In this document: positions 15,343 to 22,548 of the stretch, one piece after another
Layout: the number at the start of each line of letters is the position of its first letter
How positions within the stretch are numbered: the first letter of the stretch is position 1
Assembly: GCA_947579605.1 (NCBI GenBank)
Contig: OX388329.1
Span: 23,082,299-23,146,298 of the forward strand
Source of the DNA: Athripsodes cinereus
Lineage: Eukaryota; Arthropoda; Insecta; Trichoptera; Leptoceridae
Reading direction: 5' to 3'
DNA length: 64,000 nt
Program-made: the position numbers and the translations under genes
Notes under the pieces: generated by a model
The model's database searches: none
What the model saw: the letters and a program-made list of their open reading frames with translations, nothing else
What the model was told of the DNA's origin: nothing

Positions 15343-15714
15343 TGTTACGTAATCACCATTAGGAGGGTACTTAAGTTTGGAAGTTTAATGAATTTGAATT
15401 TTTATATTATTTTTGGTTATGGAATGTTTGGAAAATAATGACAGGTGGTTGTTTTGGTTTTGATAAAAAGAAAGATCTAGATAGGCTGGAAGAAAGATGT
15501 TATATAATGTGTATATAAGAAATCTGTGTGAACTGTAATAATATGTGACGTATATATAAATAAGAGATGTTGTAATATGTATTTTAAATAAATAATAATT
15601 GTAAATAAATAAAAACGTTTAAATAAATTGTTAATTTTCAAGATGTCATCCTTTTAATTGAATTCAGACTTTATTTTCCCTGACACAAGTTATAGAAAAA
15701 CGATTTACGTTACA
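15343..15714 (+). repeat. 5' LTR of Gypsy element
   Basis: 372 bp, starting TGTTACGTAA and ending TTTACGTTACA (TG...CA, imperfect inverted ends). It matches the 3' LTR at 21,367-21,738 base for base as far as I can read. Promoter-like TATATAAATAAG lies near 15,554 and AATAAATAAT-type polyadenylation signals near 15,587, consistent with the U3-R-U5 layout. Confidence 0.93.
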
Positions 15715-15715
15715 T

Positions 15716-15730
15716 TGGTGTCAGGTGTGG
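15716..15730 (+). other. Primer-binding site of Gypsy element
   Basis: TGGTGTCAGGTGTGG begins two bases after the 5' LTR. TGGTGTCA is complementary to a tRNA ending ...TGACACCA, as expected for minus-strand priming. A leucine tRNA is a plausible primer, but I cannot check this against the host tRNA set. Confidence 0.7.
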
Positions 15731-15782
15731 GGTTGTGAATCAGATATTTAAGTGCTTAGTGGAAATAAAGACTGTGTAAAAT

Positions 15783-18053
15783 ATGTCATCAAAAAAATTA
15801 ACTCTACTTGACTTGAAAGTGGTGGATCTGAAGCGCGAACTAGAAGAAAGAGACGCGGATACATCTGGAACGAAGGGTGTGCTCCAACTTCGACTAAGAA
15901 AGGTGATGGAAGAAGCAGGTGAAGATCCGGAAACATATATCTTCGAGTTGCCTATAACCACCAGTGAGCTTTATAAAGAAATCGAAAAGAAGCTTCAAGA
16001 AAATGCTACAGCTATGAAAGAAGAAATAGAAAGGCTTCGAGAAGATTCTAGAGGAACGAAAGAAGAAATTGAAAGGAAGTTTCAAGAATATTCTGTGTCC
16101 TTTGATGAAAGGATTAGCGAGTTAACAAAGCAGGTGAAAGTTTTGGAGAATCAGGCGCTTTCTTCAACAGCAAGAACGGATTTTGAGCAGAACACAACGG
16201 CGGACACAGAGTTCAAGTGTGTAGAGAGTGGTGCAACTTCAATGGTGGAGCATGTGCGTAGTGATATGCCAACTTTTGATGGAAAGAACTCTTGGGAAGA
16301 GTACTTAACTTTGTTCGAAACAGTAGCTATGATAAATGGCTGGTCGATGACAAGAAAAGCATCAGTATTGAGTATATCTTTACGAGGAGATGCTTTAAGA
16401 GTCCTTCAGATGATTCCGCTTGCGGACAGACAAAACTTTAAATCTTTGGTTGAGAGACTGGAGATGCGATTTGGACAAAAGCATATGGAACAAGTTTATA
16501 GGTCACAGTTGAAGAATCGTGTGCAGAGGCCCAATGAAACTCTACAGGAATTCGAGGCGGATGTAGCGCGTCTAGTGAGATGTGCATACCCTACAGTTTC
16601 TGATGATGTATGTGAAAGTCTTGCAGTAGACAAGTTTTTGGATGGACTACGAGCAAGTGAGACACAACAAGCTATAAAACTGGCTAGACCACAAACTCTT
16701 AGGGATGCTTTAACCCAAGCACTCGAATTTGAAGCTGTAAGACAATCCGTACGAGGTCACGCTCAATCCTGTGTGATGGAAGCTGTACAAGAAAATCAAC
16801 CACTTTCAATAGAAGACGTAGTTAAGAAGGTTTTGGAGGCCTTGAAAGGAAAGAAGAGACAACTACGTTGCTGGGACTGTGGACAAATTGGACACCTGCG
16901 TAATCGGTGTCCAGGAAAACTAAAAAGGGTTGATGGAAAGGTGCAACTGTCGACCCGCATTGCCAATGCCTCGAAGAGATATGCAGATGTTGCGTCGTTC
17001 AGCGGACAAGTCAGCAGCATGTTTATAAATGGCAAAGTAAATGGAAAGAATTTGAAACTTTTGTTGGACACTGGAGCAACAAAGACAATCATGAGACCTG
17101 ATTTAGTTTGCGAAAAAAAACAAATAAAATCAACTAAATGGACATTACGGACGGCAACTGGAGTGTCGGCGTCTGTATGCGGTGAGACAGTTGCCAACTT
17201 TCACATTGGAAGCACCATCTTCGATCATCAGGTGTTGGTGGCTGAGATAGAGGAGGAAGTTATTCTTGGAATGGATGTAATGGCGAAGTATGGATTCAAA
17301 CTGGATCTGAAGAGGCGAACTCTGAAAATTGGGGATGAAGATATTCTTATACAAGAGCATGAAGAATTCGCTACACGTGTGCTTGCGGCAGAAATTGTTA
17401 CTATTCCAAAACAAAGTGAAATGTTAGTACGAGCCTACTTAGATTGTGACATTCCAAATGGACATGTTTTAGTAGTGGAGTCCAACGCTAATACTGAAGC
17501 TGGAAAAGGAGTGTTGATTGCGAGAGTACTGATTCAAGCTAAAAAGGATATTTTGGTCAGGCTAATGAATATCAATGACTATCCAGTGACTATCAAAGAA
17601 GGAGTTTATTTAAGTATGTGTTCATCGGTTTCGTCAGTAACATGTAGAGTGAGCGGTGGCCAAGTTTCTTCAGAGGAGGTACCAAAACACCTTGACGACT
17701 TAGTGAAGGAGGCTTGTAAGGAACTTACCAAGGAACAGAGCAAACAGATTAGATCCTTCATCGCTAGAAATCAGGATGTCTTCGAGAACCCAAGTCAACC
17801 CAAAGGAAGAACAAGTGTTGTTAGTCATCGAATAGACACAGGTGATGCAAGACCCATTCGTCAAGTACCCAGAAGATTACCTTTAGCAAAACGGGCGGAA
17901 GCAGATCAAATTATTCAAGATATGGAACGGGACAAGGTAATAGAACCGTCAAGCAGTCCATGGTGTTCACCTGTAGTGCTGGTTAGGAAGAAGGATGGCT
18001 CAACTCGGTTCTGTGTTGATTTTCGCCAACTTAATAATGTTACTAAGAAGGAC
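15783..18053 (+). pseudogene. Gypsy gag-pol, upstream part (SAP-Gag-PR-RT start)
   Basis: Starts at ATG 15,783 and runs 757 codons to the insertion. Residues ~7-45 resemble a SAP DNA-binding motif (VVDLKRELEERDADTSGTKG). Residues ~60-125 are a heptad-rich coiled coil, and ~155-330 a retrotransposon Gag domain. A zinc knuckle C-x2-C-x4-H-x4-C sits at C363-C376, and the protease motif LLLDTGA has D429 as catalytic aspartate. The reverse transcriptase starts near 680 (SSPWCSPVVLVRKKDG, RFCVDFRQLNN) and is cut after VTKKD at 757. The frame continues into the inserted repeat and stops at its TAG repeats. Gag and pol share one frame, so no frameshift is needed between them. Without the insertion the downstream part is in the same frame. 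Confidence 0.9.
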
Positions 18054-18284
18054 CCACTCTTCTGCGTAAGTTTTCGAGTGTCCTGTAAAAGGCAGGTGTT
18101 CGAAAAAAATAAGACATTTTACATCTTAAATTCAGCGTTGAGGTTTGCCACCCATCCTGAATGTCTTGATTTTACACTGGCACGAAGAGGACAGTTTGTA
18201 TGTTTCTTACATACAGCTGATCTGCTGGCTACCCCACTTGTGGGATATGCCGTGATGGTATAGTAGTAGTAGTAGTAGTAGGAC
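18049..18284 (+). mobile_element. Family A retroelement inserted in Gypsy RT (copy 5)
   Basis: Bases 18,054-18,284 have no counterpart in Gypsy reverse transcriptases. The sequence either side rejoins as KKD|SYPLPRID, a classic Gypsy motif. AGGAC occurs at 18,049-18,053 and again at 18,280-18,284 as a 5-bp target duplication. The insert ends in (TAG)7, a microsatellite tail like that of many non-LTR elements. Its body matches family A copies at 6.4, 50.4 and 55.5 kb. With the duplication it adds 231 bp, a multiple of three, so the frame is kept but seven consecutive TAG stops block it. Confidence 0.85.
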
Positions 18285-21200
18285 AGTTACCCTTTGCCTC
18301 GTATTGATGATACGTTGGACACATTGGCTGGCTGTAAAATCTTTTCAACGTTGGATTTGAAGAGTGGATATTGGCAGGTTGGACTGGAACCTAAGGATAG
18401 AGAGAAAACAGCATTCTCTATTGGAAGTGGATTATGGCAGTTCATTGTTATGCCGTTTGGACTTTGTAACGCTCCGGCTACTTTTGAGCGTTTAATGGAA
18501 AGCGTGCTGAGAGGATTGTCGTGGGAGACCTGTTTAGTGTACCTGGATGACATCATCGTGCTTGGAAAATGTTTTGAGGAGCACTTACGAAATTTGGAAC
18601 AAGTGTTTTCACGATTGAGAGCGGCCAACTTGAAACTCAATGTTAAGAAATGTACATTGTTCCGAAGACAAGTCAACTATCTGGGTCATGTTGTCTCTGA
18701 GGAAGGAGTGGCGGTGGATCCTGAGAAGATTAGAGCTGTTCAAGACTGGCCTACACCTAAAGACAAGCATGAAGTAAGAAGCTTTTTAGGCTTAAGCACT
18801 TACTATCGGCGATTTGTTTTGGGCTTCGCTGATATCGCTAAACCATTGACAAAACTCACAGAAGAAAGTAATGAATTTATATGGGATTCAAAATGCCAAT
18901 GCGCGTTTGAAGAATTGAAGAAGGTATTGATTAATTCCCCGATTCTAAGTTATCCTCGAGCCGAAGGGAATTTTATTCTGGATACGGATGCAAGCAACGT
19001 CGGCATTGGAAGTGTACTATCTCAGGTTCAGGATGGTCAAGAACGCGTAATTGCGTACTTCAGTAAAGTTTTGTCAAGGCCGGAACGCAACTATTGTGTA
19101 ACGCGAAGAGAGTTACTTGCTGTAATCAAGTCAGTTGAGCACTTCCGCAAATACCTATATGGACGGAAATTTCTTTTAAGGACAGATCATTCGGCGCTTG
19201 TATGGCTGTTACGATTCAAGAATCCTGAAGGTCAGGTTGCAAGATGGATAGAAAGATTGCAAGAATATGACTATGATTCTGAGCATCGAGCTGGACTTCG
19301 TCATAAAAATGCTGATGCACTGTCAAGGCGTCCATGTCCAGAGGATTGCCAGCATTGTAATAAAGCGGAGGAAAGGTTCGTCATGATTCGTAGAACTACA
19401 GTCATCGATAATTTTTGGCAAGATGATGAAATTCGAGCGCACCAGTTGGAAGATCCTGACCTTGGACTTTTGATGCAGTGGAAAGAAAATGATCGAAAAC
19501 CTTCATGGGAAGAAATAGCTTCATGTTCACCAAATGTTAAATCATATTGGGCACAATGGCAATCCATAGTTGTGGAAAACGGGTTGTTGAAACGTATTCT
19601 GGAAAGTGAAGATGGAACACAGCAGAAACAACAGCTATTGGTTCCAAGGAAGAGAGTTCCTGATGTCCTTAAGCTGCTTCACGATGATGTGTCTGGTGGA
19701 CACTTGGGAGTTAAAAAGACTACAGAAAAGATTCGTCAGAGATTTTATTGGGTCCGTTACACTGAAGATGTAAAAGATTGGTGTAGAAGATGTGTGACTT
19801 GTGCTACTTCGAACGGACCTCAAAAACAGAGGCGTGCGCCAATGAGACAGTACAATGTAGGTAGTCCATTTGAAAGAATAGCCATCGACATAGCAGGACC
19901 GTTTCCCACAACTGAAAGAGGGAACAAGTATATTTTAGTAGCAATGGACTATTTTAGTAAATGGACAGAAGCCTATGCATTACCAAATCAAGAGGCTACC
20001 ACTGTTGCTGAAATCTTGGTAAGAGAGCTGATAAGTCGTTTTGGAGTACCGTTGGAGCTTCATTCGGATCAAGGAAGAAATTTTGAGTCAGCCGTATTTC
20101 AGCAAGTATGTGAGATATTGGGAATTCGAAAAACGAGAACAACTGCTTTGCATCCACAGTCGGATGGAATGGTGGAGCGAATGAATCGAACATGTGGAAA
20201 ATATCTGTCGAAGGCGGTGTCTGATCATCAGAAGGATTGGGACGAATACATCCACTTGTTCTTATTGGCCTATCGTTCGGCAATTCATGAGACAACGGGA
20301 CAAACACCAGCGAGTGTGATTTTTGGCCGTGAACTACGGTTACCTTGCGACTTGCAGTATGGATCTAAGCCTGGAGAGGATCTTGTTGGAGAAGATTATG
20401 TATCGGAACTTCGAAGAAAGATGAACGACATCCATGAACGTGTGCGGGCTAATATTCAAGTCGCTAGTGACAGGATGAAGGAAAGATATGATGTCAAAGC
20501 TGTGGAAGGAGGGTATCAAGCTGGAGATTTAGTTTGGTTGTTCAATCCTCAACGGAGACGAGGCTATTCACCGAAGCTTCAAAAATCCTGGGAAGGACCG
20601 TACGAGGTGATTAAAAGAATAAATGACGTTATTTATCGAATACGACGAAAATCAAATGGCAAGCCGAGGGTGGTACATTTCAATCGCTTAGCACCGTTTT
20701 TAGGAGACAATAAAAGTGAAGGAAACAACCCGATTGTTCAAGTCTGTAAAGTCTTAAGTGAAGAGAAGAGTTTTGAAGAATTTATGAAGACGCCTCAACG
20801 AAGAATTCATCATGGTGTCACTATCGAAGTTGAGCAAGATCTTTTTGACACTCCAGAGGATTATGTTTTGGCTCATTGCTTGGCTCAGAATGCAAAATTT
20901 ACTAATGGCATAGCCAAAGTTTTCAAGAAGAAGTACGGGATATTGGAAGAGATTAAGGCCAAGAGTTTAAAAATTGGAGAAGCGGTCCATCTACAGCATG
21001 GGGAACGACATATATTTTACATGGTAAATAAAGCAATCCCTGAAGAACAAACAGAGTATGTTCAGATGTGGCACTGTTTACAAAGTTTGCGGGATCAAAT
21101 GTTACAAATGAATCTTACGAAGCTCGGCATACCAAGGATAAGTGGCAATATGGATTGGAAAGTTGTTCGAAATATGATAGAAGAGATCTTCTGTAATACT

Positions 21201-21350
21201 GGAATCAATGTTTTAGTTTGTTGTTTTAATCCAGGGTATAGTGAGAACATCAAGAAGTCTGTACCTTGTTATTTCTTCAAGACTTCACATTGCAGAGAGG
21301 ATTCAGGATGCTCCTATCTTCATCCAGAGAATTCGTTCGGGACGAACTAA
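18285..21350 (+). pseudogene. Gypsy pol, downstream part (RT-RH-IN-macro-CCCH)
   Basis: Residue numbers count from codon 18,294. The RT continues with PLPRIDDTL and the YLDD active site (83-86). RNase H has DTDAS at 230. The integrase has an HHCC-like zinc region near 463-500 and a catalytic triad D532, D592, E628 with the canonical 35-residue D-E spacing, then a GPY/F-type module near 770-800. From 841 to about 978 a macrodomain follows (DLFDTP, LAHCLAQ, GIAKVFKKKYG), closest to TARG1/OARD1 ADP-ribosyl hydrolases. Lys913 and Asp954 align with the human catalytic pair K84/D125, with the same 41-residue gap. Residues 992-1010 form a C-x7-C-x5-C-x3-H zinc finger. The stop is at 21,348. The frame has no initiation codon of its own because the insertion at 18,054 cuts it off. 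Confidence 0.9.
20814..21227 (+). other. Macrodomain region in Gypsy polyprotein
   Basis: Encodes a fold readable as the ADP-ribose-binding macrodomain of the TARG1/OARD1 class. The first strand is GVTIEVEQDLF, the binding loop region LAHCLAQNAKFTNGIAKVF, the strand with the candidate nucleophile HIFYMVNK (Lys913), and the loop PRISGNMD with Asp954. In the family, the lysine attacks ADP-ribose on glutamate-linked targets. The domain sits after the integrase GPY/F module and before the zinc finger, so it would be part of the same polyprotein or a processed C-terminal product. Activity is inferred only from the retained residues. Confidence 0.8.
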
Positions 21351-21351
21351 A

Positions 21352-21366
21352 TTAAGAGGGAGGCAA
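21352..21366 (+). other. Polypurine tract of Gypsy element
   Basis: TTAAGAGGGAGGCAA lies directly before the 3' LTR (TGTTACG at 21,367). It is the expected plus-strand primer. Confidence 0.75.
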
Positions 21367-21738
21367 TGTTACGTAATCACCATTAGGAGGGTACTTAAGT
21401 TTGGAAGTTTAATGAATTTGAATTTTTATATTATTTTTGGTTATGGAATGTTTGGAAAATAATGACAGGTGGTTGTTTTGGTTTTGATAAAAAGAAAGAT
21501 CTAGATAGGCTGGAAGAAAGATGTTATATAATGTGTATATAAGAAATCTGTGTGAACTGTAATAATATGTGACGTATATATAAATAAGAGATGTTGTAAT
21601 ATGTATTTTAAATAAATAATAATTGTAAATAAATAAAAACGTTTAAATAAATTGTTAATTTTCAAGATGTCATCCTTTTAATTGAATTCAGACTTTATTT
21701 TCCCTGACACAAGTTATAGAAAAACGATTTACGTTACA
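21367..21738 (+). repeat. 3' LTR of Gypsy element
   Basis: 372 bp, same ends (TGTTACGTAA ... ACGTTACA) and, by eye, the same sequence as the 5' LTR. The following ATAT completes the target duplication. Confidence 0.93.
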
Positions 21739-22548
21739 ATATAATGAGTTACAATCCATTGGATTGGTCTGCAACGAGTTTGGTTTTTCTTCTCCATTCG
21801 TCTCTATTCTCAGCCAGTCTTTTCAGCTCTACGTATGAGCCACAGTTCATGTCCCTCTTCAGTTGGTCCATATATGCGTCTCTTGGTCGGCCTCTGCTAT
21901 TTGTCCCTTCGGTCTTACCCTCCGCGATGGCGATGAGTAGTCCTGGGTGCCTAATGTTGTGGCCAATCCAGTTAGCTCGTTGTTGGCTGATTATCTTAAG
22001 GAGTTGCATTTTTTCGCCTACCCTGGTTAATACTTCTTCGTTTTCGACGTGCTCCGACCAATGGATCTTAAGCATGCGTCTGTAGCACCACATTTCAAAG
22101 GCCGCCAACCGTCCGCTTTCACTCTTGTTGATGGTCCATGTCTCACAACCATAAAGCAGAATGCTCCATACAAAGGCTTTAGTAAGGTTCTTCCTTACGC
22201 TTAAGTCAATATTTGGGGATTCCAATATCTTCGATTTTTTGTTGAAGGCAATCCTTGCCTGGTTTATTCTGCTTACAATTTCTGTTTTGGAGCGTCCATC
22301 CTGGTTTATTCTGCTGCCCAGGTACACGAATTCACTTACTTGTTTGATGCTCACTCCATTTAAGGCAATGTTCGCAGTCACTTCCTCTTTTCCAACGACC
22401 ATACATTTTGTTTTTTCTTTATTTATTTTCATGTTGTACTTTGACAACAGTATACTTTCCATTTTTCCTAAGGCTTCGTTCAGCTCCATCTCGGAGTCTG
22501 CGAGCAGTGCTATGTCGTCAGCATAATTATGTATCTTATCATGTCGAC
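21739..22548 (-). pseudogene. LINE ORF2 C-terminal half (RT thumb and tail)
   Basis: Reading the minus strand from 22,548, the reverse transcriptase catalytic motif NYADDIALLADS comes first. It is followed by about 245 uninterrupted codons including NKEKTKCMVVGK, FVYLGSRINQDG, LLYGCETWTINK, EMWCYRRMLKI, RANWIGHNIRHP and GRPRDAYMDQLKRDM, the standard order for CR1/Jockey-type LINE ORF2 ends. It is 5' truncated, with no N-terminal RT motifs or endonuclease. The open frame shows the truncated copy is young. It abuts the Gypsy 3' LTR because Gypsy inserted just past its stop. Confidence 0.88.

Follow-up and report, generated by a model that had tools for sequence, protein, structure and literature searches.

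The DNA studied here, referred to below as the window, is a 64,000-nucleotide stretch of the genome of the trichopteran Athripsodes cinereus (assembly GCA_947579605.1, contig OX388329.1, forward-strand positions 23,082,299 to 23,146,298). It contains a Ty3/Gypsy long terminal repeat (LTR) retrotransposon, at positions 15343–21738 of the window, in which the pol frame runs on past the integrase into a TARG1-like macrodomain and a CCCH motif (C-x7-C-x5-C-x3-H). All parts of the element described below are on the plus strand. The LTRs lie at 15343–15714 (5' LTR, 372 bp, TG...CA) and 21367–21738 (3' LTR), and the ATAT found directly upstream of the former and directly downstream of the latter is the 4-bp target duplication. 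The LTRs, the short target duplication, and the protease–reverse transcriptase (RT)–RNase H–integrase order assign the element to Ty3/Gypsy. A single open reading frame (ORF) of 1018 amino acids (18294–21350) encodes the remainder of RT, RNase H, integrase, the macrodomain, and the CCCH motif. Within it, the integrase (19641–20696) was recognized by Pfam through its H2C2 zinc-binding, core, and p58-type C-terminal domains (ORF residues 450–507, 525–618, and 768–801, respectively). From position 20814, the frame stays open for 178 residues beyond the integrase, in agreement with the roughly 178 codons given by a first-pass annotation of this DNA; these residues hold the macrodomain (20826–21218) and then the CCCH motif (21267–21323), whose spacing, read from the sequence, is also as described there. 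A frame artefact was considered as the source of the integrase–macrodomain fusion, and was rejected.

ORF residues 841–1018 matched human TARG1/OARD1 chains in the Protein Data Bank (PDB) with E-values of 1.1e-19 to 1.9e-19 over 130–131 residues. These values are far beyond chance, and a chance resemblance to TARG1 was rejected. Local identity of the macrodomain to OARD1-type proteins was 27–38% among the matches listed. The Pfam Macro model did not match the window macrodomain; the same model does detect an OARD1 (P0116). An AlphaFold2 model covering positions 20763–21347, built on an alignment of 25 rows, 20 of them OARD1-type proteins, had block pLDDT values of 85–98 across the macrodomain and below 50 across the tail. 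When this model was compared with the PDB using Foldseek, the top eight matches were all TARG1 (for 4j5s_C, E 2e-14 and TM-score by target length 0.93). A profile comparison by hhalign of the window sequence plus a related sequence, P0081 (described below), against OARD1 gave an E-value of 3.5e-22. The predicted fold is thus closest to that of TARG1, and the TARG1-like macrodomain proposed in the first pass stands on both the sequence match (E 1e-19) and the fold comparison. Counted by hand from the ORF start, Lys913 (21030–21032) and Asp954 (21153–21155) are 41 residues apart, so that the numbering and spacing proposed earlier also hold; the two residues align with human K84 and D125. Equivalents of K84, D125, and D20 are retained in both the window and P0081, and those of H32 and C33 are retained in the window as well.

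P0081 is a 242-amino-acid sequence from a separate 990-bp assembled contig, in which the integrase tail, the macrodomain, and the CCCH motif are joined in a single frame. It is 73% identical overall to the window protein (identical residues: integrase tail, 25/29; linker, 25/37; macrodomain, 96/132; CCCH motif, 14/21). The spacing C-x7/8-C-x5-C-x3-H is present in both sequences; the motif of P0081 is barely over the Pfam cut-off (20.9 vs 20.5 bits), while the Pfam zf-CCCH_2 match in the window (E 0.14) is below it.

The A. cinereus genome (716 Mb) was searched with a 216-residue query, and since the best 150 of 166 candidates were scored, the counts are lower bounds. We found at least 146 matches, at least 118 of which cover the full query; 48 of these full-span copies lie in an open frame of at least 1775 amino acids, and 18 lie in a 1412-amino-acid frame. 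The existence of other Gypsy copies with the segment, on which the first-pass proposal depended, was thus confirmed, and a one-off transduction was rejected on the basis of these copies and of P0081, which comes from outside the genome. The 18 copies with the 1412-amino-acid frame stand beside a 1779-amino-acid class (42 copies), which suggests a subfamily with a common frame break in the gag part.

The upstream ORF of the window copy (15783–18263) encodes, according to Pfam, Gag (SAP domain, Gag, and zinc knuckle), protease, and the start of RT, where the frame is broken by an insert upstream of 18294; other copies have a single uninterrupted frame. This break had been omitted from the earlier description of the element, which otherwise holds. 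The insert, at about 18060–18290, ends in a GTA-type repeat and is perhaps a short retroposon. The SAP domain is close to the start of Gag (15813–15902; residues 11–40, Pfam E 4.5e-6), and is, to our knowledge, unusual in a Gag. No env gene follows pol, the 3' LTR (from 21367) coming only 16 nt after the stop codon of pol (21350), and the Pfam hits in the element, taken up to E 1, include no Chromo model; the defining features of an Errantivirus and of a chromovirus are thus both absent. The two LTRs have no differences over all 372 bases, and at mutation rates of 2.8–3.5e-9 per site, the insertion is younger than roughly 1.2–1.4 million generations (95% bound). Adjoining the 3' LTR, a remnant ORF on the minus strand (21749–22489) resembles, by eye, the RT tail of a non-LTR retrotransposon.

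The genome holds at least four more families of Gypsy elements (L009–L012, L101–L109) with a TARG1-like domain in Pol, at another position, which qualifies the first-pass statement that no described LTR retrotransposon was known to have this layout. The mid-pol elements share with the window family the Gypsy pol and the TARG1-like domain, their integrases being 32–35% identical to that of the window family where listed. They differ from it in that the domain is located between RNase H and integrase, lacks D125, and has no CCCH motif that could be seen. None of the four family representatives examined has D125, the residue being missing or replaced by Glu or Arg. The dN/dS of the mid-pol domain was about 0.17, 0.29, 0.36, and 0.37 in the four of six family pairs with unsaturated dS, these values being rough at a dS of 1.4–1.75; judged by these ratios, the mid-pol domains are under purifying selection. 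In VIA-align comparisons of an L009 model, TARG1 chains did not stand out among the macrodomains. L009, the sole mid-pol element tested for Env, has an Env of the Baculo_F (baculovirus F) type. P0081 is the one case of recurrence beyond the genome, since protein-database searches gave no polyproteins: a search for long polyproteins with ORF region 836–1018 of the window gave 0 of 80 candidates at E 0.001, and a search with the macro-like region of the L009 pol piece gave 0 of 367.

The first-pass annotation had proposed capture of a host ADP-ribosyl hydrolase. No host source was identified that would bear this out. No stand-alone TARG1 gene was present among the listed matches of the own-genome search, in which nine candidates were left unscored, and two exact scans of the genome for TARG1 patterns gave no matches, a procedure that a short-exon or pattern-diverged gene could escape. 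Because of these two limits, the host TARG1 gene is only likely to be absent. Pfam PF01661 gave three exon hits in the genome, which by eye are of MACROD and GDAP2 types and not TARG1. The trees, which are without insect OARD1 (the best 120 of 520 matches were vertebrate wherever an organism was named), do not decide between one acquisition followed by relocation and two acquisitions. One ancient Gypsy acquisition, with the domain later moved from mid-pol to the C-terminus or in the reverse direction, neither being a fresh host capture, is a plausible if doubtful history. It would account for the next-nearest integrases to the window family in this genome (32–35% identity), which belong to elements with a mid-pol domain in 17 of 18 rows among the matches listed; this comparison was made by position, with the best 150 of 1633 candidates scored and one row (C24:191479) that could not be checked, which weakens the point. 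The element macrodomains also group together, with support of 89/88, when the viral outlier L013 is omitted. When L013 is included, the support drops to 38/6, and an alternative tree joining OARD1 with the C-terminal group is as likely (p-AU 0.519); long branches are present. Relocation concerns the history of the domain and is treated apart from its function, for which three readings are considered below.

L013 was the one relative found in a viral-contig search with alignment A1, while searches with alignment A4 and with the L101 segment gave no relatives. The region L013:4001–4441 is a TARG1-like gene; it lies on a viral contig of 169 kb from IMG/VR and has a GCGxD loop and a TK pair. In a Foldseek comparison of the window macrodomain model with viral models (BFVD), Kadipiro virus VP8 had an E-value of 8.2e-15, proteins of Frankliniella and Thrips flavi-, negev-, and virga-like viruses also scored high, and these insect-virus proteins outranked alphavirus macrodomains. 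The match between the macrodomain and the predicted structures of several insect-virus proteins makes it plausible, though on circumstantial evidence, that ADP-ribose is contested in insects.

Our best reading of the sequence evidence is that the macrodomain would be an ADP-ribose eraser or reader linked to integration. Human TARG1 takes ADP-ribose off Glu/Asp and off DNA-end phosphates, the DNA-end activity being lost in D125A, and also strips it from thymidine in single-stranded DNA, an activity lost in K84A (PMC5725667, PMC8501950). We rank an eraser tied to integration first, tentatively and with somewhat less than even confidence. The sequence match, the predicted fold, the fusion, the copy number, and the dyad are established by the analysis; the biochemical step and any counter-defence role are inferred, and would proceed as follows. 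Joined to integrase, the macrodomain would travel with it to the particle and the nucleus, and may handle ADP-ribose put by host PARPs on the integration complex, whether on protein carboxylates, cDNA ends, or single-stranded cDNA. Through its link to integrase, the domain is placed where such adducts, on the ends of the cDNA or on the integration complex, would impede integration, and it would most likely remove the ADP-ribose and thereby keep the cDNA usable. The CCCH finger may keep RNA of the element, or nascent nucleic acid, close to the macrodomain. The mid-pol domain would represent an older module of similar type; having lost the catalytic Asp, it probably binds rather than cleaves.

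Several observations weigh against an enzyme maintained in this role. The hydrolase activity attributed to the domain in the first pass is, judged by its residues, placed in doubt. T83, S35, and G121, which are distal-ribose contacts or part of the TARG1 ligand loops, are replaced by N, A, and S, respectively, in both the window and P0081; G123 is replaced by N in the window; and three residues are absent after the D125 equivalent, which makes the loop shorter. With these positions altered, the sequences do not fit the motif published for TARG1, TKx(30,35)Px[IL]GxGxD (PMC6397177), the window having NK-x33-PRISGNMD (hand count) and P0081 NK...PKISDGMD. The CCCH motif is weak in the window and lacks a usable model (pLDDT <50). 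Variation among the copies points in the same direction. We compared 71 copies, 97.3–99.9% identical to the window, and the window itself (72 sequences); 69 were taken from 109 listed copies, L084 and L085 were added, and L083 was left out as partial. The list of 109 excludes 9 of the 118 full-span rows (stop-bearing, odd length, contig C89, and the window itself), and since copies were picked by segment-spanning matches, their stop-codon count was not used as evidence. Replacement and silent variants present in at least two of the 72 sequences numbered 4 and 13 in the integrase (333 codons), 3 and 2 in the linker, 6 and 1 in the macrodomain (142 codons), and 1 and 0 in the CCCH tail. The integrase and macrodomain differ (Fisher p 0.009), the macrodomain fitting the neutral expectation and the integrase departing from it; with singletons included (61/33 and 29/8, respectively), there is no significant difference (p 0.15). 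The counts are small, and such variants mirror few master lineages. By these counts, the macrodomain looks to be under no strong constraint in the recent burst, or to be changing fast.

The shared macrodomain variants, six replacements to one silent, are what would be expected if the domain were a recent passenger, a transduced cellular piece riding unused in a successful family, and the near-identity of the 71 copies, which means that little time has elapsed, is consistent with this too. We place this reading third and consider it quite unlikely, since P0081 retains the frame, the dyad, and the CCCH motif at 73% identity, and since no fewer than four other families carry a domain of the same kind, its dN/dS being 0.17–0.37 where it can be estimated. 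The altered ligand-loop residues speak for another reading, in which the macrodomain is a non-hydrolysing binder of ADP-ribose, or of poly(ADP-ribose)-marked chromatin or DNA breaks, and tethers the integrase to such sites. The chromodomains at the C-terminus of chromovirus integrases are thought to target integration. The macrodomain occupies this same position (PMC2774666), and D125 is absent from all four mid-pol representatives, both of which favour a reader. However, the two catalytic residues are present at the exact spacing in both C-terminal members, though a pure reader would not need them, and the altered ligand contacts are ones that a reader would require. We rank this reading second, behind removal of ADP-ribose, and consider it somewhat unlikely.

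LTR retrotransposons carry a small number of known cellular domains, which an enzyme fold that handles ADP-ribose now joins. The window family is young enough to be active, and other families of the genome carry a second, more worn form of the domain, which suggests that elements of this kind make repeated use of ADP-ribose biology. If the domain works, ADP-ribosylation would be a battleground between insect hosts and retroelements. A broader proposal, which we consider unlikely, is that TARG1-type macrodomains form a recurrent module of insect Gypsy Pol, acquired at or moved to two pol sites, and act on ADP-ribose of the cDNA or integration complex. Were it true, PARP-type ADP-ribosylation of retroelement DNA would be an insect germline defence, and the C-terminal macro–CCCH segment an element-encoded eraser.

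No report of a macrodomain in Gypsy elements was found among the papers listed from the open PMC literature (titles and abstract starts, with little subscription or bioRxiv coverage). The terms “macro” and “ADP-ribos” are absent from the available text of PMC13172572 and PMC12992720, which deal with insect Env-carrying elements, and that of PMC10221186, on macrodomain loss, has no mention of retrotransposons or TARG1. The novelty of the Gypsy–macrodomain layout is therefore provisional. The earlier statement that no LTR element with this layout had been described stands for Gypsy within that literature, and has to be qualified by certain retroviruses of fish, in which macro-domain ORFs are reported (Basta et al. 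2009, cited in PMC4977317). These are likewise retroelements with an acquired macro domain; they belong, however, to Retroviridae and have it as additional ORFs (PMC4977317). The insect-virus proteins (Kadipiro virus VP8 and those of Frankliniella and Thrips viruses) are like the window domain in predicted structure, at 16–27% identity, and come from unrelated replicons. The hydrolase TARG1/OARD1 (C6orf130) shares with the window domain the macro fold and the 41-residue Lys–Asp spacing, while the window domain is set apart by its fusion to integrase, the T83, S35, G121, and G123 changes, the shorter loop after the Asp, and the unmatched motif. Like the Ty3/Gypsy chromoviruses (PMC2774666), the window element has a cellular-type domain at the C-terminus of its integrase; unlike them, it has a macrodomain and a CCCH motif in place of the chromodomain.
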